A stretch of 64,000 bases of DNA from a virus. The notes below the pieces were generated by a model that worked only from the letters and a program-made list of their open reading frames with translations, was not told where the DNA came from and did not search any database. Numbering within the stretch: the stretch's first letter is position 1; each line of letters begins with the position of its first letter. The position numbers were made by a program, and so were the translations under genes. The stretch is taken from positions 26,113-90,112 of the IMG/VR virus record IMGVR_UViG_3300032240_001151; one strand, written 5' to 3'. Shown here in pieces: positions 1 to 64,000 of this stretch.

Positions 1-743
1 TAACATTTAATAATGAAGCTCCATCTTCTGGAGGAGGTGATGGAGATACTGTAGAAGATATAAGACTAAAGACAATAGCCAACTTCCCTACACAGTTGAG
101 AAACGTAACTAAGGAAGATCATATTATTAGAGCCTTGAGTATGCCTCCTAAATTTGGAACAGTTGCTAAGGCTTATATTACACAAGATTTAGCTCTAGCA
201 GAGATAGATAGCATGCCTGATTATATTGACAATAATCCATTAGCTTTAAGTTTATATGTCTTATCTTATGACGCAGATAAGAGGTTAACTGAGGCTTCTT
301 TAGCTGTAAAGGAAAATTTAAGAAATTATATTTCCCAATATAAGATAATGACCGATGCTATAACTATAAAAAATGCATACTATATAAACATAGGTTTAAA
401 TTTTGATATAGTAGTATTACCGTCTTATAATAGCAGAGAGGTTCTTAACCAATGTCTAAACGCAGTAAGAGATTATTTCAACATAGATAAGTGGCAAATA
501 AACCAGCCAATACTTTTGTCAGAGTTAACAAATGTAATAAGCTGTGGAAACATAAAAGGAGTTCAAAGTGTAGTTAAAGTTGAAATAGTAAATAAATACG
601 GAGAATCAAATGGTTATTCAAAATATGGTTATGATATCAAGGGTGCTACCAAAAATAATATAATCTATCCTAGTTTAGATCCATCTATTTTTGAAGTTAG
701 ATATCCTAATACTGATATTTACGGAAGAGTTGTAACCTATTAA
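1..743 (+). CDS. Baseplate wedge protein, T4 gp6-like (5' end outside window)
   Basis: The reading frame is open from base 3, so this is the C-terminal 246 residues of a longer gene. The TTG at 96 is not a convincing start, because the upstream codons read as protein (a Gly/Asp-rich stretch, then DIRLKTIANF). The visible part holds the motif TQLRNVTKEDHIIRALSMPP followed by GTVAKAYI, and alternating helices and strands like the C-terminal half of T4 gp6 / baseplate J-like wedge proteins. Gp6 dimers form the inner ring of the contractile-tail baseplate and bind gp7. The baseplate genes that follow support this. The family call rests on motif resemblance only. Confidence 0.7.
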   Translation, partial: TFNNEAPSSGGGDGDTVEDIRLKTIANFPTQLRNVTKEDHIIRALSMPPKFGTVAKAYITQDLALAEIDSMPDYIDNNPLALSLYVLSYDADKRLTEASLAVKENLRNYISQYKIMTDAITIKNAYYINIGLNFDIVVLPSYNSREVLNQCLNAVRDYFNIDKWQINQPILLSELTNVISCGNIKGVQSVVKVEIVNKYGESNGYSKYGYDIKGATKNNIIYPSLDPSIFEVRYPNTDIYGRVVTY

Positions 744-754
744 AATAGTCATAT

Positions 755-1354
755 ATGAATTTAGATAAGTTAAAAGGAAAGATACCTGATTCGGTAATAT
801 CTCAACTCCTAGACACAATTGCTAAGTTTCAAATAAACACTCCTTTGAGATTAGCTCATTTTTTAGCTCAAGCAGCCCATGAGTCTGGTGGATTTAAAAT
901 AGTAAATGAGAATTTAAATTATGGTGCAAAAGGCTTAAGATCAATATTTGGAAAGTATTTTCCAGATGATGCTACTGCTTTAGCATATGAAAGAAAGCCT
1001 GAGAAAATAGCAAATGTTGTTTATGCTAGTAGAATGGGAAATGGTGATAAAGCTAGTGGTGATGGGTGGAAGCACAGAGGCAGAGGATTCATCCAGCTGA
1101 CAGGACATGATAATTATGCAGCTTTTGATAAAGTTGTAGATGATGATATATTAGCTAATCCAGATTTAGTAGCTACAAAGTATCCATTGCTTTCTGCCGG
1201 ATGGTTTTGGAATAGCAGGGGATTAAATGCGATAGCGGATAAGGGCTCATCAGATGCAGATGTAACAGCAATAAGGAAGAAAGTGAATGGAGGGGTAATA
1301 GGATTAGATGATACAATTAAGCATTTTAAAGAATATTACAGTTTACTACAATAA
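755..1354 (+). CDS. GH19 chitinase-like lysozyme (endolysin or tail-associated)
   Basis: A 199-residue glycoside hydrolase family 19 protein, expected to cut the glycan chains of peptidoglycan. Residues 36-46 (FLAQAAHESGG) carry the likely catalytic acid Glu43. Residues 108-121 (RGRGFIQLTGHDNY) form the conserved substrate-binding segment. There is no signal peptide, membrane segment or separate wall-binding domain, so it is essentially one catalytic domain. It sits 11 bases after the gp6-like gene and 6 bases before another virion gene. That position suits a baseplate-associated lysozyme used during infection, as T4 gp5 carries one, but a lysis endolysin is equally possible because no other endolysin is seen here. 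Confidence 0.85.
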   Translation: MNLDKLKGKIPDSVISQLLDTIAKFQINTPLRLAHFLAQAAHESGGFKIVNENLNYGAKGLRSIFGKYFPDDATALAYERKPEKIANVVYASRMGNGDKASGDGWKHRGRGFIQLTGHDNYAAFDKVVDDDILANPDLVATKYPLLSAGWFWNSRGLNAIADKGSSDADVTAIRKKVNGGVIGLDDTIKHFKEYYSLLQ

Positions 1355-1360
1355 TAAAAC

Positions 1361-2461
1361 ATGGCCGTATATAAAATATTTGCTGAAAAAGACACAACAC
1401 TGTACTCTGACTACGGTACATTAAACTCTGGTATGGATCCTATTTTGGAACTATCTAAGAATGTTAGTCTATTGTACCCATCGCAATCATCAGCAGCTAG
1501 ATTTCTAATTAAGTTTGCAGATGATGATATATCAGATGTAGTGTCTAATTATATTGGTACGGCATCATTTAGCAGTAGTTTAAAATTATACTTAGCAAAT
1601 TCCACAGGATTGCCTACTGATTATTCAGTTGAGGTTTTTCCTGTATCTGGTGTATGGGATATGGGCACTGGTAGATTTGGGGATAATCCAATACCTACTG
1701 ATGGTGCTTCATGGATATACAGGAAGTCCGGTGGAACATCTCCTTGGGAGCTCGCTAACTTTTCAGCAGGAGTAACTGCATCTTATACAGATATTAATGC
1801 TGGAGGTGGTACATGGTATACTTCATACAAATCTGAACAAAATTTTGGAGTGTATACAAATAAAGATGCAAACATAGATGTATCATCTGCTGTAATAGCT
1901 TTTGTTTCTAGCTCCATACCAAATGAAGGATTTATAGTAAAACTATCAGGATCTTTAGAATTTGATGAAGCTTATAATTTTACTCTTAATTATTTTGGTA
2001 GAGATACAAACACAGTTTATCCACCGGTATTAGAATTTAAGTGGGATGATTCTACTTATTCTATATCTGGATCTTCGATAACTGGGGTCGGATCTGCTGA
2101 CGTTAGATTATCTCTTGCAAATAATAAAGGAGAATTCAATCAAGATGAAATACATAGGTTTAGATTAAATGTAAGAGATCTAATACCTACAAGAACGTAT
2201 GCCACTTCTTCAATATACACAACACAGAAGTATTTGCCAGCTAGTACATACTACTCTATAAAGGATGTAAAATCAGACATAACTATAGTAGATTTTGATA
2301 ATAATTTTACAAAAGTAAGTGCAGATTTACAAGGAAATTATTTTGATATTTACATGTATGGATTAGAACCAGAAAGATATTATAAGATACTTATAAAAAC
2401 AGTGATTAGTGGGTCTACTTTGATATTTGATGATCAATACTTCTTTAAAGTAACTGAATAA
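1361..2461 (+). CDS. Virion/baseplate protein with DNRLRE-like beta domain
   Basis: 366 residues, rich in Ser, Tyr and Asp, with no signal peptide. The N-terminal 230 residues resemble DNRLRE-type beta-sandwich domains: an early KDTTLYS motif, alternating strands, YSVEVFPVSGVWDMGTG and a closing PPVLEFKW. These domains are often carbohydrate-binding. The remainder looks like a second beta domain. The stop overlaps the next start (TAATG), so it is co-translated with baseplate genes. A structural role is inferred from context; no specific T4 counterpart is recognised. Confidence 0.5.
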   Translation: MAVYKIFAEKDTTLYSDYGTLNSGMDPILELSKNVSLLYPSQSSAARFLIKFADDDISDVVSNYIGTASFSSSLKLYLANSTGLPTDYSVEVFPVSGVWDMGTGRFGDNPIPTDGASWIYRKSGGTSPWELANFSAGVTASYTDINAGGGTWYTSYKSEQNFGVYTNKDANIDVSSAVIAFVSSSIPNEGFIVKLSGSLEFDEAYNFTLNYFGRDTNTVYPPVLEFKWDDSTYSISGSSITGVGSADVRLSLANNKGEFNQDEIHRFRLNVRDLIPTRTYATSSIYTTQKYLPASTYYSIKDVKSDITIVDFDNNFTKVSADLQGNYFDIYMYGLEPERYYKILIKTVISGSTLIFDDQYFFKVTE

Positions 2462-12893: not shown

Positions 12894-14147
12894 ATGGATA
12901 AAATATTTGTACAGATAGCTAGTTACAGAGATCCACAGCTAGTTCTCACAATAGATGACATGATGAGTAGGGCTAAACACCCTGAAAGGCTAACATTTGG
13001 TATATGTTGGCAATATGATGAAGAAGAAGATACTGAAATATTTGATGATAAACCAAATTTTCGTATAAAAAAATACCACTACACCGAAAGCGAAGGTTTA
13101 GGATGGGCTAGAAACGTTACTAATAGTCTATATGATGAGGAAAAATATACTTTACAAATAGATAGCCACCATAGATTTGTAGACGGATGGGATGATATAA
13201 TTATGGAAGATTATGCCCAGACTTTAGAAAAATCGGAAAAACCGATTATTACTACCTACTGTACCCCATTTGACCCAGAAGCTTGTAGATGTTCTTATGA
13301 AAGACTCCCATCATTAATGTCTCAGTATGAGTTTTCAGCAGATAAATTACTTATGAGTATGCCTTGGTATATTCAGGATTATCAGGAAAGAACTAAGGTA
13401 ATAAGAGCTAGAACTATCAGTGGACACTTTTACTTTGTAGATGGTAAGTTTATAGATGAAGTTAGATACGATCCTGACATTTATTTTGGTGGATACACAG
13501 AAGAAACAACTATGAGTGTTAGAGCGTTCACTCATGGGTATGATTTCTATAGCCCATACAGAATGGTAATGTGGCACGAATACACTAGAAATTACAGAAG
13601 AAAACATTGGGATGACCACGGATTAGAAAGCCAAACAAAAAAAACATCTGGGGAAAGAGATATATATGCTAGGAACAAGACTAGGCAATTGTTTGGACAA
13701 GAAGAGCATGGCATAGATATGGGAATATATGGATTAGGAACGGTGAGGACTTTACACGACTATGAGGTATATGGAGGGTTTGATTTTAAAAATTGCAGAA
13801 TACAAGACTATACTCTAAAGGTTAAAGAACCACCAAATCCAATAGATTGGGAAGAGCAGTTTAAAACTTATAAGTATGATGTTACAGTTGATTGGGATGT
13901 AGAATTTTTTAAGAAATTTGAATTTGAAAACCCTAAATTTTTAACACTAGGTATACAAACAAAATCTGGATTGGAATTATATAGGAAGGATTTTAAAATT
14001 GAAACAGAACCTGAGTATGTTAATCTAATAAATAATATGTACACAACTACTATAGATTCTCAAGATAAGCCTGATAAAATAGTAATGTACTTATTTGATG
14101 AAAATAAACAGTGGAGTGAAAGGTACGAAAAAGATATAAATGTATGA
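12894..14147 (+). CDS. GlcNAc-type glycosyltransferase (Skp1 GnT-like)
   Basis: 417 residues. Residues 1-290 match the PF11397-type fold of polypeptide N-acetylglucosaminyltransferases: an opening FVQIASYRDPQL, the metal-binding DSH in LQIDSHHRFVDGWDD, and GGYTEETTMSVRAFTHGYDF. Eukaryotic members add GlcNAc to hydroxyproline of Skp1; bacterial and viral members also occur. The last 120 residues look like a separate beta domain. It opens an operon of sugar enzymes and overlaps the next gene as ATGA. The acceptor is unknown; neighbouring Thr/Pro-rich virion proteins are candidates, as are host surface glycans. Confidence 0.75.
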   Translation: MDKIFVQIASYRDPQLVLTIDDMMSRAKHPERLTFGICWQYDEEEDTEIFDDKPNFRIKKYHYTESEGLGWARNVTNSLYDEEKYTLQIDSHHRFVDGWDDIIMEDYAQTLEKSEKPIITTYCTPFDPEACRCSYERLPSLMSQYEFSADKLLMSMPWYIQDYQERTKVIRARTISGHFYFVDGKFIDEVRYDPDIYFGGYTEETTMSVRAFTHGYDFYSPYRMVMWHEYTRNYRRKHWDDHGLESQTKKTSGERDIYARNKTRQLFGQEEHGIDMGIYGLGTVRTLHDYEVYGGFDFKNCRIQDYTLKVKEPPNPIDWEEQFKTYKYDVTVDWDVEFFKKFEFENPKFLTLGIQTKSGLELYRKDFKIETEPEYVNLINNMYTTTIDSQDKPDKIVMYLFDENKQWSERYEKDINV

Positions 14148-49356: not shown

Positions 49357-52300
49357 ATGAGTTGTTCTTCTACATATTGCAATATAACAATCACCATATC
49401 TACTGGATTATCATACGTTACTGGTGATTATTTACTATTATATTGTGACAATTGCAACTCTATAAATGGTCAAGTTGTATCCTATGATTCTATTACTGGA
49501 CAATTAATATTACAACCAATATCATTCGAAGGTACTGGTTCATGTTGTAATTGGACAGTTAGTTTATCGGGAGCCCCAGGAAGCGTAGGCAGTTCTGGAT
49601 CTTCTGGTTCATCCGGATCTAGCGGTTCATCAGGTACTTCTGGTTCGTCTGGAACTAGTGGTAGTTCTGGTAGTACAGGAACGTCTGGTACTTCAGGCTC
49701 TACTGGCAGTTCAGGTTCTAGTGGATCTTCTGGAAGCACAGGAACATCAGGATCTACCGGTACAAGCGGTTCCACAGGTACTTCAGGAACTAGCGGAAGT
49801 ACAGGAACTTCTGGCTCATCAGGTACTTCAGGTTCTACAGGAACATCTGGTAGTAGCGGATCTAGTGGTAGTTCTGGAACATCTGGAAGTGCCGGCATAT
49901 CAGGAGACAGATACTTAACTTCTTCTACAAGTTCTATAGCTTTAGGAGTAGGAGGTACTATTACAGTAGAACAAAATTTAGCATATTCTGTTGCACAGAC
50001 AGCGTTAATAGCTTATGATACCACCCACTATCAAGAGGTGCCAGTAGTTTCATATAATCCATCTACAGGTGTTTTAGTCTATGGAACTCCTAGTTTAACA
50101 GTAGGAACAGGTACCTACTCATCTTGGAGAGTAAATTTAGCAGGTGCCAGTGGAGGAGATGGAACCTCAGGAAGTTCTGGATCTTCAGGTTCTAGCGGAT
50201 CTTCTGGTAGTAGTGGTTCAACAGGTACGTCTGGTAGTTCAGGATCTACGGGATCTAGTGGCTCAACCGGAACTTCTGGTTCGACTGGTTCATCAGGAAC
50301 CTCAGGCAGTACTGGATCATCCGGTACATCAGGAACTAGTGGGTCATCAGGTAGTAGTGGTAGTTCTGGCTCCACAGGTTCAAGCGGAAGCACAGGATCA
50401 TCTGGCAGCTCTGGATCAACAGGAACTTCGGGAACTAGCGGCAGTACAGGAACCTCAGGTACATCAGGAACTAGTGGAAATGGTTCATCAGGAACATCAG
50501 GTTCTACAGGAACATCAGGTTCTACAGGAACATCAGGTAGCTCTGGCAGCTCTGGATCAACAGGAACAAGCGGATCCACTGGTACTAGTGGTTCAACCGG
50601 TTCATCTGGTTCTAGCGGATCTTCTGGATCCTCTGGTACATCAGGTTCTTCCGGAACATCTGGAAGTTCTGGATCTACAGGAACGTCAGGAACCTCAGGT
50701 TCTACAGGAACGTCAGGTTCTACTGGATCTAGTGGTACTTCTGGTGTAAATGGATCTTTTGGAACTAGTGGAACTTCTGGATCAACTGGAACTTCAGGCA
50801 GTAGTGGAACAACAGGATCATCTGGATCATCAGGTTCTACTGGTACTTCTGGTTCTACTGGATCTAGTGGTACTGGAGGTAGTTCAGGGACTAGTGGATC
50901 GTCTGGATCAACCGGTAGTTCAGGTAGTACAGGAACTTCAGGTAGTACGGGGTCGTCTGGGTCTAGTGGATCTTCTGGTACTTCTGGTATAAATGGATCA
51001 AGTGGAACTAGCGGCTCGTCTGGTTCATCTGGAAGTTCCGGTACAAGTGGATCCTCTGGTTCTACTGGTAGTAGCGGATCTACAGGCACATCAGGAACAT
51101 CAGGTTCTACTGGTACTAGCGGTTCAACAGGAACATCAGGTTCTAGTGGAACAGGATTTAATACTATCAATAGCCCAGCTATTGGCAGAATATTATTAGC
51201 AGATAACTCTACTAATGCAGCAACTGCCTCAATTAGTATGAGCTTTAATAATGGAGTTTTATTAGTAACAGGAAGTATAACAGCTACTGGTAATATACAA
51301 GCTAACACTTTAATAGTACAAACTGTAAGTTCATCTGTAGTATACAGTAGTGGTTCAAATATATTTGGTAATGTTGTAACAAATACTCATCAATTTACAG
51401 GATCAGTATCGATAACAGGATCTTTAAGTATTGTAAATTTAAACATAAGCAGCAGCGCCAGTAAATTTGTAGTAGTAGATAATTTTGGTAAGCTATTCTA
51501 TACAACAAGTAGCGCAGCAGGATCTTCTGGTAGCGCAGGTTCATCAGGAACCTCAGGCAGTACTGGATCATCTGGTTCTACTGGATCAAGTGGATCAACA
51601 GGAACAAGTGGTTCATCAGGTTCTACAGGAACATCAGGAAGCACAGGTACGTCTGGTTCAACTGGATCTTCGGGCACGTCTGGTTCTGCTGGTTCTAGTG
51701 GAACTAGTGGAAATGGATCGTCAGGTACAAGTGGAACTACAGGAAGTTCTGGTAGTACAGGTACATCGGGCAGTTCAGGAACAACAGGTTCATCGGGGTC
51801 AACTGGTACATCAGGTTCTACAGGAACTAGCGGTACATCAGGCAGTACTGGATCATCTGGTTCTAGTGGATCAACAGGAACAAGTGGTTCATCTGGTGTT
51901 AGTCCCACTATATCAGGCACTGCTTACTATGTGCCAAGATATAATTCTACAGGCAATGCCTTAGAAAATACGACTGCCATGATATACAATAGTGGCAGTA
52001 ACGTAGGTATAGGAATTACTAGTCCGAATTATAATCTACATGTACACGGGTCAGGATCTACTCAATCTTATTTACAATTTACTACTACAAACACTGGTAC
52101 CGCAACTGCAAACGGATTTATAATAGGGGTAGATTCTACCAGTAAAGCTTATTTACTGAATAGACAGAATACAGATATGCAGTTTTATACTAATAATTCT
52201 GTACAGATGGTTATTCTTGCAGGAGGGAGTGTTGGTATAGGCACTACATCACCCGCAGAATTATTAACTGTTAATGGTAGTATATTTTTATCTGGAAGTG

Positions 52301-53052
52301 GTCGTAGTGTATGGTTAGGAAATAATGGTGATTCTCAACCTAGATTAAGACTGCATCACAATGGGACTGCGGCATACATAGATTATTCATCTAGTTTATA
52401 TATTAGAAATGGTACTCCTGATATAAAAGTAACTTTTGACCCTAATGGTAATGTTGGTATAGGTACTACATCACCAGGAACTACTTTAGATGTAGCAGGA
52501 ACATTATCATTTACCTCTGCTTCTTTAAGTGTTTCTTTTGCTAGAAGAAATGGTAACTATCATCAAATATTTGAACCAGCAGGTGGTATTGCAATTTATT
52601 TAGGTAATACTTCTGATCCTGGAAACTATTATGATAATACAAATCATAATTTTAGAAGTAGAGGAGGAGGTACTGTTTATGGATCAATAAACAGTTCCGG
52701 TACTTTAACAATGTTAGGAGATGTTATAGCTTATGGTTCTCCATCTGATATTCGTTTAAAAAATATTAAAGAGAAAGTACCTAACGCTTTATACTCTGTT
52801 CTTAAATTAAATGGATATAGATTTGATTGGAAAGAATCTGATTCAATCTTAAAAATAAAAGAAGACATAGGGGTCATAGCTCAAGAAATAGAAGACGTAG
52901 CTCCTGAACTAGTTAGAACTAATGAAGAATCAGGAATGAAAAGTGTAAGATACCAAGGTTTAACAGCTATACTAATTGAAGCAATAAAAGAACAACAACA
53001 ACAAATAAATAATTTACAAGAACAAATAAATAAAATAACAAATGGACATTAG
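49357..53052 (+). CDS. Tail fibre with Gly-Ser-Thr stalks and S74 self-cleaving chaperone
   Basis: 1231 residues. Two related small beta domains (1-71 and 183-262) alternate with G-T/S-S arrays at about 72-182, 263-599 and 722-847. A linker module at 600-720 contains ANTLIVQTVSSSVVY. A beta region follows with three VGIG(I/T)TSP repeats, the last two reading GIGTTSP. The C-terminus (1130-1231) is a peptidase S74 intramolecular chaperone: SDIRLKNIKEK, DIGVIAQEIEDVAPE, RYQGLTAILIEAIKEQ and a terminal coiled coil. S74 domains trimerise the fibre, then cut themselves off, here probably before Ser1130. The arrays are likely collagen-like stalks. Confidence 0.88.
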   Translation: MSCSSTYCNITITISTGLSYVTGDYLLLYCDNCNSINGQVVSYDSITGQLILQPISFEGTGSCCNWTVSLSGAPGSVGSSGSSGSSGSSGSSGTSGSSGTSGSSGSTGTSGTSGSTGSSGSSGSSGSTGTSGSTGTSGSTGTSGTSGSTGTSGSSGTSGSTGTSGSSGSSGSSGTSGSAGISGDRYLTSSTSSIALGVGGTITVEQNLAYSVAQTALIAYDTTHYQEVPVVSYNPSTGVLVYGTPSLTVGTGTYSSWRVNLAGASGGDGTSGSSGSSGSSGSSGSSGSTGTSGSSGSTGSSGSTGTSGSTGSSGTSGSTGSSGTSGTSGSSGSSGSSGSTGSSGSTGSSGSSGSTGTSGTSGSTGTSGTSGTSGNGSSGTSGSTGTSGSTGTSGSSGSSGSTGTSGSTGTSGSTGSSGSSGSSGSSGTSGSSGTSGSSGSTGTSGTSGSTGTSGSTGSSGTSGVNGSFGTSGTSGSTGTSGSSGTTGSSGSSGSTGTSGSTGSSGTGGSSGTSGSSGSTGSSGSTGTSGSTGSSGSSGSSGTSGINGSSGTSGSSGSSGSSGTSGSSGSTGSSGSTGTSGTSGSTGTSGSTGTSGSSGTGFNTINSPAIGRILLADNSTNAATASISMSFNNGVLLVTGSITATGNIQANTLIVQTVSSSVVYSSGSNIFGNVVTNTHQFTGSVSITGSLSIVNLNISSSASKFVVVDNFGKLFYTTSSAAGSSGSAGSSGTSGSTGSSGSTGSSGSTGTSGSSGSTGTSGSTGTSGSTGSSGTSGSAGSSGTSGNGSSGTSGTTGSSGSTGTSGSSGTTGSSGSTGTSGSTGTSGTSGSTGSSGSSGSTGTSGSSGVSPTISGTAYYVPRYNSTGNALENTTAMIYNSGSNVGIGITSPNYNLHVHGSGSTQSYLQFTTTNTGTATANGFIIGVDSTSKAYLLNRQNTDMQFYTNNSVQMVILAGGSVGIGTTSPAELLTVNGSIFLSGSGRSVWLGNNGDSQPRLRLHHNGTAAYIDYSSSLYIRNGTPDIKVTFDPNGNVGIGTTSPGTTLDVAGTLSFTSASLSVSFARRNGNYHQIFEPAGGIAIYLGNTSDPGNYYDNTNHNFRSRGGGTVYGSINSSGTLTMLGDVIAYGSPSDIRLKNIKEKVPNALYSVLKLNGYRFDWKESDSILKIKEDIGVIAQEIEDVAPELVRTNEESGMKSVRYQGLTAILIEAIKEQQQQINNLQEQINKITNGH
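49570..49902 (+). repeat. Gly-Ser/Thr-coding array 1
   Basis: About 111 codons of (Gly-[Ser/Thr]-Ser)n. Serine is written with TCT, TCA, TCC, TCG, AGT and AGC in mixed order, so the periodicity is in the protein and much less in the DNA. Confidence 0.85.
50143..51153 (+). repeat. Gly-Ser/Thr-coding array 2
   Basis: About 337 codons of Gly-x-Ser units, with rare interruptions (GNGSSG, GVNGSFG, GTGGSSG, GINGSSG). The absence of stops on other frames produces long antisense open frames. Confidence 0.85.
51520..51897 (+). repeat. Gly-Ser/Thr-coding array 3
   Basis: About 126 codons of the same type, with one GNGSSG interruption, just before the receptor-proximal domain. Confidence 0.85.
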
Positions 53053-53606: not shown

Positions 53607-54572
53607 ATGGCATTACCATTAAGTGGAAAGTTGTCAATGAATGATATACGAGTAGAACTCGGAATATCTACACAATCTCCATTTTCTTTGGATACTGCTA
53701 CTAATGGTGGTTATGTTGCCTTGAATCCTTGTAGCCCGTATTTACCTATAGCAACAAATCCAGACGCTATTAGTGAATGGTATGGCTATTGTCATACATG
53801 CCCTTGTCCAACAGCTACTCCTACACCATTACCAGCAACAGCTACACCTACTCCTACTCGAACACCAACACCAGTACCAGCAACAGCTACACCAACACCT
53901 ACACCTCTACCAGCAACAGCTACTCCTACTCCTACTCGAACACCAACACCTACATCAACGCCTACTCCTGCGCCAGCAACAGCTACTCCTACACCTACGC
54001 CTACTATAGTTTGGTACTCTTATAATTTAAAGTACTCAGATACTAGTTATACAGCTGCTTGTAATTCATCATTAAGTCAGACTGTGTACAGTACTTGTTC
54101 TACTTTAACTACTGGTTGTATTATATACTTAGACACAAATTATACAAATGTTAATCATTTATATTATGCAGATCCTCTTGTAATTTCAGTTAGATATGGA
54201 TATACCGTAAATACAGATCCTAAATTATTATATACATATATAGGAGCCGTAAACGCATGTTCCGCAACTCCTACACCAACTCCAACTCCGGCCCCTACAC
54301 CAACTCCTACTCCAACAACTACAGGATTCTATTATATTGCTGATAGATATAATTGTACTGGTACTGGTAATACTTGCGCACTAGTATCAAGTAATATTTG
54401 TATTAAAAATACTGCAACAGTTAGCACGTTTAATAGGTACTATTTAGATAATACAGGGTATACTGGAGATATATTCTTTGTAAAATCAACTACATCATCG
54501 GGAGCTTGTTTAAACACATCGTTAGATTTAACAACTATAACAACAAGTTGTAATACTTTATGTGCATTATAG
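53607..54572 (+). CDS. Tail-fibre-type protein with mucin-like Pro/Thr linkers
   Basis: 321 residues. The N-terminus ALPLSGKLSMNDIRVELGIS and the following segment ending ISEWYGY form an attachment domain I recognise from many phage tail proteins (ALPxSGxLSxxDIRxELG). A 67-residue Pro/Thr/Ala linker (about 67-133) follows, then a Cys-containing beta domain, a second short linker (219-238), and a terminal Cys-rich beta domain. It is the immediate upstream neighbour of the second glycosyltransferase operon, so its Thr-rich linker is a candidate acceptor. Confidence 0.6.
   Translation: MALPLSGKLSMNDIRVELGISTQSPFSLDTATNGGYVALNPCSPYLPIATNPDAISEWYGYCHTCPCPTATPTPLPATATPTPTRTPTPVPATATPTPTPLPATATPTPTRTPTPTSTPTPAPATATPTPTPTIVWYSYNLKYSDTSYTAACNSSLSQTVYSTCSTLTTGCIIYLDTNYTNVNHLYYADPLVISVRYGYTVNTDPKLLYTYIGAVNACSATPTPTPTPAPTPTPTPTTTGFYYIADRYNCTGTGNTCALVSSNICIKNTATVSTFNRYYLDNTGYTGDIFFVKSTTSSGACLNTSLDLTTITTSCNTLCAL
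53807..54005 (+). repeat. Pro/Thr/Ala-coding degenerate repeat
   Basis: Units such as ATPTPTRTPTP and VPATATPTPTPLP encoded by ACACCT/ACTCCT variants. It strongly resembles the tracts at 11284 and 12385, over 40 kb away, which suggests exchange between fibre genes. Confidence 0.8.
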
Positions 54573-54637: not shown

Positions 54638-56599
54638 ATGAAAAAAAGGTTATTATTTATAGCACCTCACCTTTCTACAGGTGGTATGCCTCAGTATCTT
54701 TATAAGCAAATTATAACGCTTTTAGAGGATTTTGATGTTTATTGTATTGAATGGGATAATGTAACAGGCGGAGTTCTTGTAGTGCAACGTAATCGTATTC
54801 TAGAGGCATTAGGAGACAGGCTTATTACATTAGGAGAAAACAAAGAAAATCTTTTATTACATATAAAAGTAATAAAACCAGACATTATTCATCTACAGGA
54901 AATCCCAGAGATGTTTATGGGCTATGGTTTAGCTGAAAAACTATATAACGATCCAGGTAGAACTTATAAAATAATAGAGACTTCTCATGATTCTAGCTAC
55001 GATGTAACCAAAAAGAGCCATTTCCCAGATAAGTTCATGATGGTAAGCCAGTATCAAATAGAGACTTATAAGAAACTAAATATACCGTGTGAGCTAGTAG
55101 AGTATCCTATAGAGTATAAAGTAAGGACTAAAACTAGAGAAGGGCTAATGTCTGAGTTAGGATTAGATCCTAGTAAGAAACATGTAATAACAGTAGGGTT
55201 ATTTACTCCTAGAAAAAATCAAGCTGAAGTAGTAGAATATGCTAAAATGCTTGAAAAATATCCAATACAATTTCATTTTATTGGCAATCAAGCAGACAAT
55301 TTTAAGCATTATTGGGAGCCTATTATGAAAGATTTTCCATCAAATTGCAAATGGTGGGGAGAAAGAAGCGATGTAGATACTTTTTACCAAATGGCTGATT
55401 TATTCTTGTTTACTTCTAGAGGGTTTATAACTGATAAAGAAACAATGCCTTTGGTTATTAGAGAAGCTATTAGTTGGAAAGTACCATCTTTAATATATAA
55501 TTTAGATGTTTATTTAAACTATTTTAATACCTTTGATAATATAGAATACCTAAATACAAAAGATAAAAAACAAAATAAAGAACTTATTTTAAAAAAAATA
55601 AACATGGATAACATAGAAAATTCTTATAATTTTTGGAGTAAATGGGATAAAGACCAACAACAAATGCATTTTGGGTGCTATGAAGATATTAATGAACCCT
55701 TATTAGTATCTATTAAAGAATATATGTCAAATGGAGTTCTATGGTCATCTGATTATACTCATATGCCAAAAGACATAGCATTTTGGATGATTCCTGTTAA
55801 TAAAAGTTTATTTGATTATGAAAAAGATCCAAAATATACGGGCACAAAATTATGTATATACAGAAAAAAAGATGGAAAGCAAGTATACGAACACCCTTAC
55901 TTTAGTAAATTTGTAGACATACCTAGAGTTACTCTAAGTAACAGTATTCCATATTATTACAATTATGTTGAGTTTTTTATTGCAAATAAGTATGGAAAGT
56001 ATTTTAATAAAAAATATAAAAATATAGTAGATGTTGGAGCTAACGTTGGAGCTTTTACTGAGTATCTGCTACAAAATGAATATACAGAAAAAATAATTGC
56101 TGTAGAATGTGATCAAAAAGCTTTAAATGATTTAAATAGAAATTTTAAAAGAGAATATAGGGTAGAAATAGAACCAAAGGCTTTATACCATGAAAATACA
56201 AAAATAAATTTCTATCATTCTGAAGAAAATCCAGTAATTAGCAGTACACTTTCTCCGGAAAAATTAGTTAATCATATGGCTGGAGTTAAAGGTAATGATA
56301 TTACAGAAGTAGATACTATAACTATAAAAGATCTTATAGATAAACTTGAGACTATTGATCTTTTAAAAATAGATATAGAAGGAGGAGAGTATAACATAAT
56401 TGAAAATTTAGACTCTTCTTTATTTCAATATATCAATAATTTTTTTATAGAGTGTCATTTTTTTGAAGAAGATTATAAAGTAAAGTATAATAGATTGTTA
56501 GATAAATTAAGAAAAAATGGGTACAAAGTAGAAGAGTTTTTAGAAAATCAATCAAATAATTCAGGAACTAGTGAGGTAGTATTTGCTTCAAAATTATAA
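54638..56599 (+). CDS. Bifunctional GT4-like glycosyltransferase and FkbM methyltransferase
   Basis: 653 residues. The N-terminal part (1-330) is a GT-B glycosyltransferase: LLFIAPHLSTGGMPQYLYKQ, DIIHLQEIPEMF, VITVGLFTPRKNQAEVVEYA and LPLVIREAISWKVPSLIYN nearby. The linker region 350-440 is less clear. The C-terminal part (about 440-640) is an FkbM methyltransferase: IVDVGANVGAFTEYLL (SAM motif), IIAVECDQKALNDL, and LLKIDIEGGEYNIIENL. The fusion suggests that a transferred sugar is then methylated. It opens the second sugar operon, under a host-type promoter. Confidence 0.8.
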   Translation: MKKRLLFIAPHLSTGGMPQYLYKQIITLLEDFDVYCIEWDNVTGGVLVVQRNRILEALGDRLITLGENKENLLLHIKVIKPDIIHLQEIPEMFMGYGLAEKLYNDPGRTYKIIETSHDSSYDVTKKSHFPDKFMMVSQYQIETYKKLNIPCELVEYPIEYKVRTKTREGLMSELGLDPSKKHVITVGLFTPRKNQAEVVEYAKMLEKYPIQFHFIGNQADNFKHYWEPIMKDFPSNCKWWGERSDVDTFYQMADLFLFTSRGFITDKETMPLVIREAISWKVPSLIYNLDVYLNYFNTFDNIEYLNTKDKKQNKELILKKINMDNIENSYNFWSKWDKDQQQMHFGCYEDINEPLLVSIKEYMSNGVLWSSDYTHMPKDIAFWMIPVNKSLFDYEKDPKYTGTKLCIYRKKDGKQVYEHPYFSKFVDIPRVTLSNSIPYYYNYVEFFIANKYGKYFNKKYKNIVDVGANVGAFTEYLLQNEYTEKIIAVECDQKALNDLNRNFKREYRVEIEPKALYHENTKINFYHSEENPVISSTLSPEKLVNHMAGVKGNDITEVDTITIKDLIDKLETIDLLKIDIEGGEYNIIENLDSSLFQYINNFFIECHFFEEDYKVKYNRLLDKLRKNGYKVEEFLENQSNNSGTSEVVFASKL

Positions 56600-56601: not shown

Positions 56602-57423
56602 ATGGTTTTATTTTTATACGGAAATAAAGATGTAGATCATCAAGCTATATCATGCATAAAATCTTTATCTAATAAAATAACAGATGATGTTAAGATAGTA
56701 TACTATACTATAGGTTTTGAAACTGATTTTTCTCTTAAAAATCTTACACCTATAAAAATAGATTATAAACCTCAATATCCAACTTTTCATTATTATAAAG
56801 CTGAGTTATCACTTTTAACAATGAGATTATTTCCTAATGAGTATTATATGTTTTCTGATACTGATATTTTATACTCTAGGAGGTTTTCTTTTGATAATAT
56901 GAAGAGTAATTTATCATACCCACTTGCTAGTTTTGGTCCTCATGAATATCCTTATTTATGGGAAAAAAGAGGAGATGCTACTATTATATATGATGAGTCA
57001 AAATTAATGGAGTATTTTAATGTTAAAGAAAGATCTCAAAGATATGTGTGGTCTTGCATTTATTCTTTTAGCGAAGAGTCTACCGATTTTTTTGAGGAGT
57101 ACACTTCTATGTGTAATAACAGATATTTGTTAAATAGAAGAAAAGATTATTATCCTATGCATGATGAAACATCTTTTAATGTATGTCTTTGGAAAAGAAA
57201 CGCAGATAAAAATTTAGGGTACTCTTTTTTAAATACACATCTTTTAGACTCAGTAAAAAAAGTAGAAGAAAACGATATAAAACAACAAAGATTAGGTACA
57301 AATTTAGATAGTCAAGGAAATGACTGGGAATATATTCATGATTCTAAAAGTATAATAGGATACCATGGATTTAAAGAAAAAAAAGATATAGAGGACACTT
57401 TAAAATATCTTCTTAGTTTTTAA
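56602..57423 (+). CDS. Putative GT-A glycosyltransferase
   Basis: 273 residues. The N-terminal strand LFLYGNKDVDHQAISCIKSL resembles the start of GT-A enzymes, and YYMFSDTDILYSRRFSFDN carries the DxD metal/nucleotide-sugar motif. A later MHDETSFNVCLWK segment fits the acceptor-side acidic residue seen in GT8- and GT32-like families. I cannot name the exact family. It lies between the GT4-FkbM fusion and the heptosyltransferase fusion with two-base and zero-base gaps, so it is part of that operon. Confidence 0.6.
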   Translation: MVLFLYGNKDVDHQAISCIKSLSNKITDDVKIVYYTIGFETDFSLKNLTPIKIDYKPQYPTFHYYKAELSLLTMRLFPNEYYMFSDTDILYSRRFSFDNMKSNLSYPLASFGPHEYPYLWEKRGDATIIYDESKLMEYFNVKERSQRYVWSCIYSFSEESTDFFEEYTSMCNNRYLLNRRKDYYPMHDETSFNVCLWKRNADKNLGYSFLNTHLLDSVKKVEENDIKQQRLGTNLDSQGNDWEYIHDSKSIIGYHGFKEKKDIEDTLKYLLSF

Positions 57424-59505
57424 ATGAAAATAATAAATGTCACTCCAGGATTAATACCAATACCTCCTAATGGTTGGGGAGCTGTGGAGAAAATAATATG
57501 GGAGACGCACAATGCTTTATTAGAGTTAGGTCATGATTCTCAAATACTGTATTTAGATGATGTAAAAGATTATGACGTAGTTCATATTCATGTAGCTAAT
57601 CTAGCAAACATAGCTCACGAAAGAGGCATTTCATATTATTTTACAATGCATGATCATCATGCTTTTTTATATGGTAAAGAGTCAGAAGTTTTTAAAGAAA
57701 ACATGACTGCAATCAAAAATGCTAAAAAAGCATTCGTCCCTGCTAAATTTTTGGTTGGTTATTTTGGAAATATACCGGAGTATTTTTCTCATGGAGTTAA
57801 CACAGAATACTTCACTCCTAGTAAAACAGAGAATCCAAAAATATTGTGCGTAGCAAATAATGGATTTATACATGATCAATCAGAGGACAGGAAGGGATTT
57901 GGATACGCTATAGAGGCTGCTAAGAGGCTAAACTATCCAATAACTATAGCTGGACCTATTAATAACAAAAAGTACTTTGAAAAGTATCCATCTGACTATA
58001 ATAACCTTACTATTTTGTATGACCTTACAGAAGATCAGTTGAGAGATTTATACAAAGATCACAGCTGCTTTTTGCATCTATCTACTTTAGAAGCAGGACA
58101 TCCAAATTTAACTATATTAGAGGCTATGGCATCAGGATTACCGGTAATAGGTACTTATGAAGATGGCAATAGTCTAGAAGGTTTGATAAGAGTTAATAGA
58201 AATACAGATGAAACTGTAGAAGCACTAAGTAAAGTATTTCATAATCCTATTGAGTACTTGCATTATTCTAAAGCAGCACGAAAACAAGCCATGCAGCTAT
58301 CATGGAAAAATAGAACAAAAGAACTTATAAAATATTACACAATGAGTTTTAAAGAACAATTAATAAAAAGTTATAACAACACCAATATTTTGGGAATAAA
58401 ATCTAAACCTACTATCCCTTCTTTTAATATAAATTTTATAGGAGGGGCGTTTTTTGAAATTATAGGAGGGCCTGATAGGGAATATGATGTACAATTTATA
58501 GATAAAAAAACAAAAAAAATACATCATAAAGGACGTATCAAAAAAGATCATTGGATAAAAGCATCTATTTCTTATTGTGTAGATTGGGATATATTTGTAG
58601 ACGATGGTATAGATTCTTATGAGTTCCATACTGACTATTTGGGAAAGAGAGTTTATATAGCTTTAGATTCTAAAGCCTTGGGAGATACTCTTGCGTGGTT
58701 TCCTTACGTAGAAGAATTTAGACGTAAACATAATTGTAAAGTTGTATGTTCTACTTTTTGGAACCATTTTTTTGAATCAGAATATCCGGAAATTGAATTT
58801 GTAAAACCTGGTGACGTAGTACATAATTTATATGCTATGTATACAATAGGGTGGTTTTATGATAGTGATGGATCGTTTGATCTTAAAAAGACTCCAGGAG
58901 ATTTTAGGAATCAGTCTCTTCAAAAGACCGCTTCAGACATCTTAGGTCTTGATTTTGTACCAATTAAGCCAAAGATAAAGAAACCTGTACCTGGTTTAAA
59001 AGAAAAAAAAGTAGTGATTGCAATGCACTCTACAGCACAGTGTAAGTACTGGAACAATCCTGATGGTTGGCAGGGATTAGTAGATTACCTATTAGATAGT
59101 GGTTATGAAGTTATTATGTCTTCTAAAGAAGAAGATGGGTATATGGGTAATAAATACCCTAAAGGAGTTACTTTATTAATGCATAATAGCATAGAATCAG
59201 TAATGCTTGAGATTTTAACAGCCGAAATGTTTATAGGTATTAGTAGTGGTCTTAGTTGGCTAGCCTGGGCTTTAGGAGCTAAAACGTGCCTTATCTCAGG
59301 AATTACATCACCAGAGTCAGATTTTGAACCTACTGTGAGAATAATCCCTAAAGAATCTGTTTGTAGGTTTTGTTTTAACAAAGAAAGGCTAGACGCAGGA
59401 GATTGGAACTGGTGTCCTAAGCACAAAGGGACTTCAAGACAGTTTGAATGTACTAAAACTATTACAAGTGTAGATGTAATACAAAAAATATCTAAATACA
59501 TCTAA
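57424..59505 (+). CDS. GT4 fused to TibC/BAHT-like protein O-heptosyltransferase
   Basis: 693 residues. Residues 1-310 are a GT4 domain (INVTPGLIPIPPNGWGAVEK, HLSTLEAGHPNLTILEAMAS). Residues about 330-690 match autotransporter heptosyltransferases of the TibC/BAHT type: SFNINFIGGAFFEIIGG, RVYIALDSKALGDTLAWFPY, and a GT9-like FIGISSGLSWLAWALG. A C-terminal cysteine cluster of the metal-finger kind follows (CRFC, 13 residues, C, 11 residues, C). Known members transfer heptose onto Ser of repeat-rich adhesins in the cytoplasm. Ser/Thr-rich fibre genes flank it, so phage fibres are plausible substrates. The donor sugar is unverified. Confidence 0.75.
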   Translation: MKIINVTPGLIPIPPNGWGAVEKIIWETHNALLELGHDSQILYLDDVKDYDVVHIHVANLANIAHERGISYYFTMHDHHAFLYGKESEVFKENMTAIKNAKKAFVPAKFLVGYFGNIPEYFSHGVNTEYFTPSKTENPKILCVANNGFIHDQSEDRKGFGYAIEAAKRLNYPITIAGPINNKKYFEKYPSDYNNLTILYDLTEDQLRDLYKDHSCFLHLSTLEAGHPNLTILEAMASGLPVIGTYEDGNSLEGLIRVNRNTDETVEALSKVFHNPIEYLHYSKAARKQAMQLSWKNRTKELIKYYTMSFKEQLIKSYNNTNILGIKSKPTIPSFNINFIGGAFFEIIGGPDREYDVQFIDKKTKKIHHKGRIKKDHWIKASISYCVDWDIFVDDGIDSYEFHTDYLGKRVYIALDSKALGDTLAWFPYVEEFRRKHNCKVVCSTFWNHFFESEYPEIEFVKPGDVVHNLYAMYTIGWFYDSDGSFDLKKTPGDFRNQSLQKTASDILGLDFVPIKPKIKKPVPGLKEKKVVIAMHSTAQCKYWNNPDGWQGLVDYLLDSGYEVIMSSKEEDGYMGNKYPKGVTLLMHNSIESVMLEILTAEMFIGISSGLSWLAWALGAKTCLISGITSPESDFEPTVRIIPKESVCRFCFNKERLDAGDWNWCPKHKGTSRQFECTKTITSVDVIQKISKYI

Positions 59506-59599: not shown

Positions 59600-62500
59600 A
59601 TGGCCCAAATACTCAAACTCCGCAGGAGCGCTATACCTGGCGCTAAACCTACAATTTCTCAAATTGAATTTGGGGAAGTAGCTATGAACACAGCTGATGG
59701 AAAGCTGTTCATGAAAGTTAGTGGTAGCGGTGGGGACAGTGTAATAGAGATAGGTGCAAACTCAGCAACCGGCAACGTATCAGGGTCGATATATTACATA
59801 CCAGTATTTACAGGTCCTAATTCAGTAGGCACAAGTTCAATATACCAATCTGGGTCTTTCACATCAATAAGAAATGCCACAGCACCACAAGATCCAAACA
59901 ATCCGGATATATTATATGTAAATGGGGATGGTGTTGATACATATAACCTTATATCTGCGCATGGTAATTTAAATGATTTTGTACAAATAAATGTACAAAA
60001 CTATAATTCTGGGGTATCTTCTTCATCAGATATAGTAGCAACTTCTGATATAGGAACAGAAACTAGCTCTTATGTAAACTTAGGTATAAACTCTAGCAAT
60101 TATAATATTGTTGGATCCGTAGGTGGTGCTCTAGATGCCTACTTATATGCCAGTGATAGCAATTTATTGATAGGTAGTACCGCTACAGATAAAAAAGTAA
60201 TAATATTTACAGGAGGACAAAATGCTCTTGAAAATGCAAGAGTGTATATAGATCCAGGAGGTACAGTAGGTATAAACACGTCCACTATCACTAGTGGTAA
60301 TCCTGAGTCTTTGTATATAGAAGCTATTAATAATCTTACATATAATTTAATTACAGCTAAATCTAATGTAAATAGTTATAGCCAGATTAATATTCAAAAT
60401 AGAAGTGATGGACCAAATGCATCATCTGATTTTGTAGCTACGGCAGATACTGGAGACGAGAATCAAAGGTATATAGACATGGGTATAAACTCTTCTGGGT
60501 ACTCCGCAGGTTCTTATATAGGCGGATCCTTAGATGCATACCTATATTCTAATTCTGAGAATTTATATATTGGTAATGCTGCTACTGGAAAAGAGATTAT
60601 AATATTCAATGGAGGGTATAATACCGAAACAAATGCTAGAATTTGGATACATGATCAAGGCACAATAGGCATAAATACAGAAGTATACAATTATACAAAT
60701 CCACCATCTCTTCAAATACAAGCTGCTAATAATAGCACCTATAATTTAGTACAAATAAAAGGAGATGTTAATAACTACTCTCAGGTAGCGATTACAAATG
60801 CTAGTCCTGGGAATATGGCATCTTCTGACTTAGCATTGTATAATAACGTAGACTCTGATAATCAATTATCTGGTTACATAGATTTAGGTATAAACTCCAC
60901 TAACTATGTACCAAATCCAGATTATCCTGGATATGGAGGACATGCTTATCTTTTTACTGATTCTAATAATTTAATAATAGGGTCTATAGCTGATACTGCA
61001 TCTTTAAGTTTTTTTGTAGGAAGTAAAAATCAAGACACCGGAAGCAAACTATCATTAAATTCTAATAACCAGCATACAATGACTGGTTCATTAGATATAT
61101 CTGGATCTTTATATATAGCATCTAGTTTAGGAATTACTGCATTTTCGTCTAACATAGATACTTTATTATTAACGGGTTCTGCTATTATAACTGGATCTTT
61201 AATTGTTACTGGTAGTGTAAATGTTGAAGGCGGTATAACTGGGTCTTTATATGGAACAGCAAGCTGGGCAGAAAATGTTAGAACTGCATCTTATTCTAAC
61301 ACCTCTATTAGCGCCTCATACTCAGAAACAGCATCATCAGCAGATAATTTTACTGTAAGAGGAACTCTAACTGCTCAAACTCTTATAGTTCAAACTATAA
61401 CATCTTCAATTGAATATGTTACCGGATCTACTCACTTTGGGACTGTTATTCAAAATACTCACGAATTTACTGGATCCGTAGCAATATCGGGATCTTTAAC
61501 AATAAACGGTATTCCATACACTTCTGCTACCTCAGGCACATCAGGTACAAGTGGCATATCTGGTTCAACCGGATCTAGCGGTACGTCTGGAACTTCTGGA
61601 AGTACTGGAACATCAGGTACTTCTGGATCAAGCGGTTCATCTGGAACTTCTGGACAAACAGGTAGCTCCGGTACGTCTGGTACAAGTGGCTCATCTGGAA
61701 TATCAGGATCAAGCGGATCATCTGGTTCAACAGGTAGCAGTGGTTCGACAGGTACTTCAGGAACATCTGGAAGTTCAGGTATTAATGGAACTAGCGGCTC
61801 TACTGGTACATCCGGGTCCTCTGGATCATCTGGTTCTACAGGAACTTCAGGCAGTAGTGGATCAACAGGCACCTCTGGAACTAGCGGTTCAACTGGTAGT
61901 TCTGGCTCAACAGGAAGCTCTGGTAGCAGCGGAAGTTCTGGCTCAACAGGTAGTTCAGGCACATCTGGAAGCACAGGATCTTCTGGTACCTCAGGAACCA
62001 GCGGTAGTTCTGGAACATCAGGTTCTACTGGTAGTAGCGGATCTACTGGTACATCAGGTACTAGCGGTACATCTGGTTCTACAGGAACTTCAGGTACTAG
62101 CGGTACATCTGGTTCATCAGGAACAGGATTTAATACAATTAATAGCCCAGCTATCGGTAGAGTGCTAATATCTGATAATAGCAATAACGCAGCAACTGCC
62201 TCAGCAGTAATAACTGTTAATGGAGGAGTAAATATATCAGGAAGCACTGTTGTTACTGGATCATTAACAGTATCTAATACTATAACAGCTCAAACCCTTA
62301 TAGTTCAAACTATAACTTCTTCAGTTGAATTTGTAACAGGATCTACTCACTTTGGAACTATAGTAACTAATACACATGAGTTTACTGGATCCTTATCTAT
62401 ATCTGGTTCTCTTACAATAAATGGTACGTCTTATACAGCTGCTACTTCTGGAACATCAGGTACTTCTGGATCATCAGGAACTAGAGGTTCTTCTGGATCA

Positions 62501-64000
62501 AGCGGTTCATCTGGAAGCACAGGTTCTTCTGGCTCTACTGGTAGTTCTGGCTCATCTGGTTCTACAGGTACATCTGGTTCTTCTGGAACTAGCGGTTCTA
62601 CGGGAACAAGTGGATCTTCAGGATCAACTGGTACTAGTGGTACATCCGGTTCCACGGGAACTTCAGGTAGTACAGGAACCAGTGGTTCAAGTGGAAGTAC
62701 TGGTACAAGCGGAAGCTCAGGAACAAGTGGATCAAGCGGGTCTAGTGGAAGTACCGGTACATCAGGTTCTAGTGGTAGTACAGGAAGTAGTGGCTCATCA
62801 GGATCTACTGGTAGCTCAGGTAGCACTGGCACCTCAGGTTCAACAGGAACGTCAGGTAGTAGTGGTTCTACTGGTACAAGTGGTAGTACAGGATCGTCTG
62901 GCTCTAGTGGTAGTTCTGGTTCTTCTGGCAGCACTGGTACAAGTGGGACATCTGGCTCATCCGGCACTTCTGGAAGTACAGGAACATCAGGTAGTAGTGG
63001 GACAGGATTTAACACTATAAGTAACCCAGCACTAGGTAGAGTATTAGTGTCTGATGGAACAACAAATGCAGCTACAGCGTCAGCTACATTAATTGTAAAC
63101 AATGAAAATGTTGTTATTACAGGAAGTTTAATCACTAGTGGATCTAACAAATTAATAGGAAATACACAATTAACAGGTTCATTGTCAATTTCTGGATCTA
63201 CAACTCAAATAGGAAGTAATACTTTAATTGGAAACACTGTATTATCAGGTAGTCTTATAATATCAGGGTCTCAAGGTACAACAATACCAAATATTCAAAT
63301 TTATGGTGATGTAAATCAAACAGGCTATACTAGATATTTACCAATATCATCAACTATAGATACTACAGTATCCGCCTCTTATATTTTTGTAAGTGGATCT
63401 ACAGGTGATTTGTATTTTTCTCAAAATGGTGCTGGATATTCTAACCTTGTTCGTTTACGTTGGTTAGAAGGAAATTTATATACCGGTTTATTAGGAGGAG
63501 GTGTCCTAAGTTCAACACTAGGATCAACAACATTTAACTTATCCTCAGGTTCAGGCATTATAGTAACATTAAATGCTAGTACAGGAAGTGCTGACCCATA
63601 TCCAACAGTACAATATATTACTTGGCCTAATTTTACAAATGTACCCATTACCAATTCAGGTTCAGCTAAAATTACGTACGTTAGCATAACATTAGCCGGA
63701 GCTATTAATCAACAAATAGTCCCTATTGGTTCATCAGATATTAATCAATGGGATACTCAAGTTGAAATAGGTGTTGTATTACATTTGTCTGGTAGTGTAT
63801 CTACCGGTGTTTATAATGCACCTCAATTAGCATACGGGTTTGCTCAAAGAACAGATGACTTTTTAAGAGCTTTTGGGCCATTAAAAATATCAGGCCATAC
63901 ATTACAAGCTAGTGGTAGTTCACCAACATTAAGTATTAAAAAATCAAGCGGTACTGCTTACAATAATGGATCTAACTATGTTAATAATCCAAATCATCCA
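59600..64000 (+). CDS. Giant tail fibre with Gly-Ser-Thr stalks (3' end outside window)
   Basis: Open from ATG 59600 to the window end, 1467 residues without stop. The N-terminus AQILKLRRSAIPGAKPTISQ and IEFGEVAMNTADGKLFMK form a fibre attachment domain typical of such proteins. Three repeats of about 133 residues follow (from residues 115, 248 and 381), each with a Y-x-D/N-L/M-G-I-N-S signature, the first two with NLxIG and VGIN/IGIN motifs. TAQTLIVQTITSS modules at about 591 and 896 precede Gly-Ser/Thr arrays at 645-843 and 950-1136. The rest is beta-rich. A C-terminal chaperone would lie beyond the window. Confidence 0.85.
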   Translation, partial: MAQILKLRRSAIPGAKPTISQIEFGEVAMNTADGKLFMKVSGSGGDSVIEIGANSATGNVSGSIYYIPVFTGPNSVGTSSIYQSGSFTSIRNATAPQDPNNPDILYVNGDGVDTYNLISAHGNLNDFVQINVQNYNSGVSSSSDIVATSDIGTETSSYVNLGINSSNYNIVGSVGGALDAYLYASDSNLLIGSTATDKKVIIFTGGQNALENARVYIDPGGTVGINTSTITSGNPESLYIEAINNLTYNLITAKSNVNSYSQINIQNRSDGPNASSDFVATADTGDENQRYIDMGINSSGYSAGSYIGGSLDAYLYSNSENLYIGNAATGKEIIIFNGGYNTETNARIWIHDQGTIGINTEVYNYTNPPSLQIQAANNSTYNLVQIKGDVNNYSQVAITNASPGNMASSDLALYNNVDSDNQLSGYIDLGINSTNYVPNPDYPGYGGHAYLFTDSNNLIIGSIADTASLSFFVGSKNQDTGSKLSLNSNNQHTMTGSLDISGSLYIASSLGITAFSSNIDTLLLTGSAIITGSLIVTGSVNVEGGITGSLYGTASWAENVRTASYSNTSISASYSETASSADNFTVRGTLTAQTLIVQTITSSIEYVTGSTHFGTVIQNTHEFTGSVAISGSLTINGIPYTSATSGTSGTSGISGSTGSSGTSGTSGSTGTSGTSGSSGSSGTSGQTGSSGTSGTSGSSGISGSSGSSGSTGSSGSTGTSGTSGSSGINGTSGSTGTSGSSGSSGSTGTSGSSGSTGTSGTSGSTGSSGSTGSSGSSGSSGSTGSSGTSGSTGSSGTSGTSGSSGTSGSTGSSGSTGTSGTSGTSGSTGTSGTSGTSGSSGTGFNTINSPAIGRVLISDNSNNAATASAVITVNGGVNISGSTVVTGSLTVSNTITAQTLIVQTITSSVEFVTGSTHFGTIVTNTHEFTGSLSISGSLTINGTSYTAATSGTSGTSGSSGTRGSSGSSGSSGSTGSSGSTGSSGSSGSTGTSGSSGTSGSTGTSGSSGSTGTSGTSGSTGTSGSTGTSGSSGSTGTSGSSGTSGSSGSSGSTGTSGSSGSTGSSGSSGSTGSSGSTGTSGSTGTSGSSGSTGTSGSTGSSGSSGSSGSSGSTGTSGTSGSSGTSGSTGTSGSSGTGFNTISNPALGRVLVSDGTTNAATASATLIVNNENVVITGSLITSGSNKLIGNTQLTGSLSISGSTTQIGSNTLIGNTVLSGSLIISGSQGTTIPNIQIYGDVNQTGYTRYLPISSTIDTTVSASYIFVSGSTGDLYFSQNGAGYSNLVRLRWLEGNLYTGLLGGGVLSSTLGSTTFNLSSGSGIIVTLNASTGSADPYPTVQYITWPNFTNVPITNSGSAKITYVSITLAGAINQQIVPIGSSDINQWDTQVEIGVVLHLSGSVSTGVYNAPQLAYGFAQRTDDFLRAFGPLKISGHTLQASGSSPTLSIKKSSGTAYNNGSNYVNNPNHP
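61532..62128 (+). repeat. Gly-Ser/Thr-coding array 4
   Basis: About 199 codons of Gly-[Thr/Ser]-Ser units with single GQTGSSG and GINGTSG interruptions and a mixed set of Ser and Gly codons. Confidence 0.85.
62447..63007 (+). repeat. Gly-Ser/Thr-coding array 5
   Basis: About 187 codons of the same unit, ending GSSGTGFNTI like arrays 2 and 4. Together with its upstream module it is a divergent tandem copy of the array-4 unit, offset by 915 bases. Confidence 0.85.

Follow-up and report, generated by a model that had tools for sequence, protein, structure and literature searches.

We examined the gene at 57424-59505 of a 64,000-nucleotide stretch of viral DNA (the window; positions 26,113 to 90,112 of IMG/VR virus record IMGVR_UViG_3300032240_001151), which encodes a GT4 glycosyltransferase domain fused to a domain resembling TibC. 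This TibC-like enzyme probably O-glycosylates serines of the phage's own collagen-like fibre stalks, and partner enzymes would extend or cap the glycan. We observed homology of the enzyme to TibC, conservation of TibC residues, a TibC-like predicted fold, an operon-like gene order and an association of the enzyme's branch with Gly-[Ser/Thr]-Ser repeats.

Identity of the fusion enzyme

The preliminary description, made from the letters of the DNA, had read the open reading frame as a GT4 domain joined to a TibC/BAHT-like half with a GT9-like core. Profile searches confirmed this architecture. The N-terminal half matched Pfam Glycos_transf_1 (2.8e-10, residues 154-288), and the C-terminal half matched Pfam Glyco_transf_9 (7.4e-07) and, far more strongly, the NCBIfam profile TIGR04414 (hepto_Aah_TibC; 271 bits, 1.2e-80, residues 350-691; 273 bits in the genome search), for which the curated cut-off is 200 bits. 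Judged by sequence, the C-terminal half is a member of the TIGR04414 family. Profiles of lipopolysaccharide (LPS) heptosyltransferases gave 21.3 bits (TIGR02193, heptosyltransferase I), 19.3 bits (RfaC) and 12.3 bits (TIGR02201, heptosyltransferase III), the cut-offs of the first two being 185 and 437 bits, and the profile search returned no WaaF model at E<=1. With LPS scores so far under that of TIGR04414, we rejected identity as an LPS heptosyltransferase of the WaaC/WaaF kind. PHROGs contained no TibC family match to this protein.

Structure comparison led to the same protein. The best PDB match by sequence was TibC (4rap, 5.9e-46), and a fold search with the AlphaFold model (mean pLDDT 87) also ranked TibC first in the PDB (E 2.4e-27, template modelling (TM) score 0.82 on the target), with 31% identity over 379 columns of the fold alignment. 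The N-terminal beta-barrel that precedes the catalytic core was present in the model at pLDDT 90 or more. The parts of the enzyme are:

57424..59505, + strand: GT4/TibC-like fusion glycosyltransferase, 693 amino acids, ATG start
57424..58353, + strand: N-terminal GT4 domain, residues 1-310, PPNGWGAVEKIIWE type (Pfam PF00534 2.8e-10; Foldseek matches MshA, PimA, tll1591)
58426..58650, + strand: beta-barrel of the TibC-like half, residues 335-409 (AlphaFold strands 334-414; aligned to TibC 37-97)
58684..58686, + strand: Asp421, equivalent by alignment to the TibC catalytic base Asp110 (role from PMC4358343)
59032..59046, + strand: Thr537-Lys541, predicted donor phosphate site by alignment (TibC Thr226, Lys230)
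59362..59451, + strand: predicted four-cysteine iron finger, Cys647/650/664/676 (TibC Cys339/342/358/370)

In TibC, Asp110 is the catalytic base, Cys339/342/358/370 form the iron finger, and both the finger and the beta-barrel have been described as unique to TibC (PMC4358343). When 56 distinct phage domains were aligned with TibC, no change was seen at Asp110, Lys230, Trp305 or any of the four finger cysteines, and hardly any at Thr226; the window equivalents of the three donor-site residues are Thr537, Lys541 and Trp612. The cysteine cluster that had been noted in the gene (CxxC-x13-C-x11-C) was found exactly, and its four cysteines aligned column by column with those of TibC, so that the overlap with the TibC metal finger is complete. 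A chance cysteine pattern was rejected, since all four columns are invariant. The two hydrophobic residues at the tip of the beta-hairpin thumb of TibC (Phe265-Val266) aligned with Tyr573-Met574, where the window enzyme has a shorter loop and the AlphaFold model no hairpin. By this alignment, the enzyme agreed with TibC at each catalytic, donor-site and finger residue used as a test of identity except Arg286. The gene, its domains, the cysteine cluster and the neighbouring arrays all stand above chance level.

Collagen-like arrays beside phage and bacterial enzymes

The fusion gene is the third of three tightly packed glycosylation genes (gaps of 2 bp and 0 bp), which are flanked on both sides by genes for collagen-like fibres:

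49357..53052, + strand: second collagen-like fibre with C-terminal S74 chaperone, proposed substrate (Pfam Collagen 8.5e-75, Peptidase_S74 3.8e-13; PHROG tail fibre)
54638..56599, + strand: GT4 (PHLSTGG type) plus FkbM methyltransferase (Pfam FkbM 2.1e-18, GT4 3.1e-13)
56602..57423, + strand: GT-A-fold glycosyltransferase with DxD motif FSDTDIL (AlphaFold pLDDT 84; Foldseek GT6 family E 1e-7, TM about 0.5)
59600..64000, + strand: collagen-like fibre, incomplete, proposed substrate (Pfam Collagen 6e-52; two Gly-Ser/Thr arrays)

As the preliminary description had stated, a fibre gene with two Gly-Ser/Thr arrays lies directly downstream. It starts 95 bp past the stop of the fusion enzyme and carries arrays at 61535-62128 (66 triplets) and 62450-63007 (62 triplets), in which Ser or Thr fills 95-98% of the X and Y positions; the window ends with the 90,112-bp virus record, and the gene runs off its end. 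The upstream fibre carries five such arrays. No AIDA-type autotransporter partner was seen in the window, where the partner candidates are these Pfam Collagen fibres. The likeness to autotransporter O-heptosyltransferases that had been claimed for the enzyme thus holds for profile, fold and cysteines and fails as a functional label, the partners being collagen-like repeats. Because neither the partner nor residue 286 agreed, we did not file the enzyme as an autotransporter heptosyltransferase.

The portal, terminase and major head proteins of the window phage matched PHROG head-and-packaging families, and its closest named capsids are those of Flavobacterium phage immuto (53%) and Microcystis phage Mel-JY01 (50%). 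The complete phage Mel-JY01 carries the enzyme together with a 202-triplet Gly-Ser/Thr fibre; the related phage immuto has neither. In the Mel-JY01 record (PP395634.1; locus L163, 2-3049) this fibre was deposited as opposite-strand hypothetical proteins (1-651 and 739-2298, minus strand), apparently a mis-annotation.

The phage enzyme is no one-off. One scan of viral contigs yielded 107 relatives. The TibC-like domain stands alone, in tandem, or fused to GT4, GT2, GT25, FkbM or other methyltransferases in proteins of up to 1606 amino acids. At L062 (7995-10469) and L069 (5814-9790) the domain is in tandem, either within a single protein or across two overlapping genes; the cysteine-finger motif did not match the second member of the L069 pair. 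Proteins of the L039-L054 group (for example L046, 7056-8090) carry an N-terminal half of ~345 residues fused to the TibC-like domain; for the single member searched, this half had no match in Pfam, and it may be an undescribed glycosyltransferase or other domain.

Several divergent phage lineages have a collagen-like Ser/Thr gene starting 33-101 bp downstream of the enzyme. Among phage contigs chosen by the DNA pattern (GGN WSN WSN)10 alone, 19 of 38 carried TIGR04414 over its cut-off, compared to 0 of 26 control contigs chosen for Gly-Pro arrays (Fisher p 4e-6), a fair but imperfect control because some of its contigs are chance matches in GC-rich DNA and they are generally smaller. Every pair among the 12 co-occurring domains compared (of the 19) was less than 65% identical. 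For scale, a tblastn search of 50,697 phage records hit the domain in 4. This design replaced co-occurrence via major-capsid relatives, which we dropped as uninformative because most contigs were short and at least one was broken inside a repeat array.

We also gathered bacterial relatives in one scan of genome contigs. In the tree, TibC and the other canonical members form a separate clade (support 100/100), and those examined adjoin AIDA-repeat autotransporters. The window enzyme falls outside it, in a branch made up of phage enzymes and stand-alone bacterial ones. The closest of the latter (loci L080-L098 and L102; methanotrophs such as Methylobacter and Methylomicrobium, Polaromonas, Acidiferrobacterales and others) are 36-52% identical to the window domain and adjoin small secreted proteins, which have a Gly-[Ser/Thr]-Ser repeat in common and share little else. 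We rejected the reading of an autotransporter-modifying BAHT for this branch, around which collagen-like neighbours were seen and autotransporters were not; with such partners, autotransporter heptosyltransferase is the wrong label for it.

Bacterial loci were scored with a profile built from the phage domains, with the TibC row included, and an array gene was counted within 1.5 kb. Such a gene was present at 12 of 18 bacterial-genome loci scoring at least 400 bits and, among the 62 lower-scoring loci, at a single one with 399 bits; the resulting Fisher p of 3.7e-9 is indicative only, because the split was set after the data had been seen and five of the 18 loci are probable phage contigs in metagenome-assembled genomes. 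The division in the tree nearly equals this 400-bit split. Four bacterial genomes (3.6-5.5 Mb) had all their strict (Gly-[S/T]-[S/T])8 arrays within about 1.1 kb of a TibC-like gene; in a fifth (L083) the sole strict array shared a contig with the gene at a distance of about 16 kb, and in a sixth (L080) no array met the strict pattern. The suggestion in the preliminary description that the fibre is the substrate thus gains support from bacterial neighbours and from phage co-occurrence measured against the Gly-Pro control.

The array proteins beside these stand-alone genes, in methanotrophs and other proteobacteria, are themselves candidate glycoproteins: small, secreted or lipoprotein-like, with Gly-Thr-Ser/Gly-Ser-Ser arrays (L088 6859-7809, L087 9199-9900, L102 6509-6889 and 9252-9878). 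No description of this pairing was found in the literature searched. We likewise found no paper on a TibC/BAHT enzyme in phages in the open literature, subscription papers and preprints lying mostly outside the search. The viral structure library already includes a phage protein (A0A6J5SVC1) under the name 'Glycosyltransferase Aah/TibC'; the phage occurrence has therefore been annotated before, and we found no functional discussion of it.

Proposed pathway and alternatives

From these data we infer the catalytic activity, the serine acceptor in the window fibres, the donor, the order of the steps and the role of the glycan as follows. By analogy with TibC, we would place the fusion enzyme in the cytoplasm, where its targets would be fibres that have not yet assembled or are still doing so. 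The TibC-like half probably moves one sugar per serine onto Gly-[Ser/Thr]-[Ser/Thr] triplets, with ADP-heptose as the most likely donor and a heptose as the sugar transferred; Asp421 would serve as the base, Lys541 and Thr537 would hold the donor phosphate, and the four-cysteine finger probably aids assembly and substrate gripping, as it does in TibC. The fused GT4, the PHLSTGG-type GT4-FkbM protein and the GT-A protein probably then extend and methylate the first sugar. The outcome would be short capped glycans along the stalk, with a role in stiffening, protease resistance or shielding.

The participation of the GT4s is suggested by their distribution. Two GT4 types recur near phage TibC-like genes. 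The type fused in the window enzyme is a separate gene beside the TibC-like gene at L090 and L092, and the PHLSTGG type (as at 54638-56599) is fused to or near the TibC-like gene for 30 of 62 phage proteins; neither type adjoins the bacterial TibC-like genes at the loci examined. This recurrence as fusion or as neighbour is, in our view, evidence for joint action of the GT4s and the TibC-like domain. The third protein, 56602-57423, had no Pfam match by sequence, and its model has the GT-A fold.

Triplet composition is suggestive of serine as the acceptor. TibC glycosylates Ser and not Thr (PMC4358343). In the phage set, 86% of array triplets contain Ser, mostly in the third position, and Gly-Thr-Thr is depleted in the two window fibres (3 compared to 17 expected; 0 compared to 11.5 expected), as it should be if every triplet needs a Ser.

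Several observations weigh against glycosylation of the fibre stalks as we propose it. Two phage loci (L004, L019) show an excess of Gly-Thr-Thr. A number of phage loci had no such array within the 8 kb examined, some records (for example L026 and L030) have no Gly-X-Y array at all, and in the 636-kb phage LR756504 nothing matched the strict array pattern. The array contigs may share habitat or lineage, and the post hoc choice of 400 bits counts here as well. On the donor side, TibC Arg286 is replaced by Val593 in the window and is Arg in 19 of the 56 phage domains; the two models tried, GmhA and RfaE-II, detected no homologue on the record of the window; and across 17 carrier records the search for ADP-heptose supply gave one GmhA-like match under the cut-off (G012) plus two weak RfaE-II-like ones on other records.

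ADP-heptose is therefore a provisional choice of donor, given the replacement of Arg286 and the lack of a pathway gene on the contig by either model. That the arrays are glycosylated from some other nucleotide sugar is possible, although we find it doubtful. Arg286 contacts adenine, was given as the ground for ADP specificity and is described as highly conserved in BAHTs (PMC4358343); its loss in the window and in most phage domains, together with the failure of the GmhA and RfaE-II models to find a complete pathway on carrier records, would fit such a donor. Set against this, Thr226, Lys230 and Trp305 are kept, WaaC, an ADP-heptose user, likewise aligns a Val with Arg286, and the host may supply the pathway. 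At TibC position 300 the window enzyme has Ser, as has AAH, where TibC has Pro, and AAH takes both heptose epimers (PMC4358343).

Other readings change the target. It is unlikely that the enzyme acts on another protein (a capsid or tail protein, a host adhesin, or the protein at 53607-54572) and sits beside fibres only as part of a variable-island hotspot. Variable fibre regions do accumulate glycosyltransferases (PMC7029224), and 53607-54572, between fibre and enzymes, is dense in Pro-Thr repeats; but bacterial relatives outside phage islands also adjoin Gly-[Ser/Thr]-Ser repeats, which in four genomes are the only strict arrays, and the Gly-Pro array contigs lack the enzyme. Quite improbable, in our estimate, is an enzyme directed at the host envelope, at LPS or another glycan, for instance to block superinfection, as is often proposed for phage glycosyltransferases. 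The gene does lie in a cluster of glycosyltransferases next to fibres, pelagimyophage islands of that kind have been read in this way (PMC7029224), and Pfam places the core in GT9 alongside heptosyltransferases. However, the LPS profiles reach less than one-tenth of the TIGR04414 bits, the TibC-unique iron finger and beta-barrel are complete, and such an enzyme would not be expected to accompany Gly-Ser/Thr arrays in phages and bacteria alike.

Two further genes of this phage are recorded here as observations. The 321-residue protein at 53607-54572 (TPTPTRTPTP repeats) is a possible O-glycosylation target, and another glycosyltransferase lies far upstream at 12894-14147 (PHROG 24687, 9e-92).

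Relation to known systems and significance

The window enzyme shares with TibC and AAH (TIGR04414; PDB 4rap, 4rb4) the beta-barrel, GT-B core, four-cysteine finger, catalytic Asp and donor-site Thr/Lys/Trp. It differs from them in being phage-encoded, fused to GT4 and partnered by collagen-like fibres instead of AIDA-type autotransporters, and from TibC also in its Val for Arg286, its AAH-like Ser at 300 and its place outside the TibC clade. TibC/AAH is a ring-shaped dodecamer, in which the fused GT4 would need accommodating. The stand-alone bacterial proteins sit on the same branch, most with a Gly-[Ser/Thr]-Ser neighbour, but have no GT4 fusion or phage-type GT4 nearby, and their partners are small secreted or lipoprotein-like proteins. 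Sugars on collagen-like repeats are also reported for BclA of the Bacillus exosporium (PMC8968730) and for the mimivirus collagen galactosylhydroxylysyl glucosyltransferase (PMC9546862); those systems use other enzymes, the mimivirus acceptor is hydroxylysine, and the available portions of these papers name no TibC-like enzyme. Mycobacteriophage glycosyltransferases modify phage structural proteins (Freeman et al. 2023, as described in PMC12619734), but at capsid and tail tube C-termini rather than fibre arrays, and the accessible text of PMC12619734 mentions no TibC-like enzyme.

More broadly, we lean towards a second, hitherto undescribed branch of the TibC family, present in many large aquatic phages and several bacterial groups and dedicated to serine O-glycosylation of collagen-like Gly-[Ser/Thr]-Ser repeats, with modular GT4/GT2/GT25/FkbM enzymes capping the tail-fibre stalk glycan in phages. 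TibC/AAH enzymes have so far been described as modifiers of autotransporter-type adhesins. If our reading is correct, the family would reach as far as the virions of phages and a class of bacterial repeat proteins that has gone unstudied, and the Gly-Ser/Thr fibre stalks common in aquatic phages would gain a predicted modification. It would also provide a prokaryotic and viral route to decorate collagen-like repeats on Ser, in which a compact pair, a Gly-Ser/Thr-Ser array and one enzyme, may be usable for glycosylated collagen-like material. On this reading, some of the phage glycosyltransferase islands that are commonly taken to target host LPS would act on the virion.
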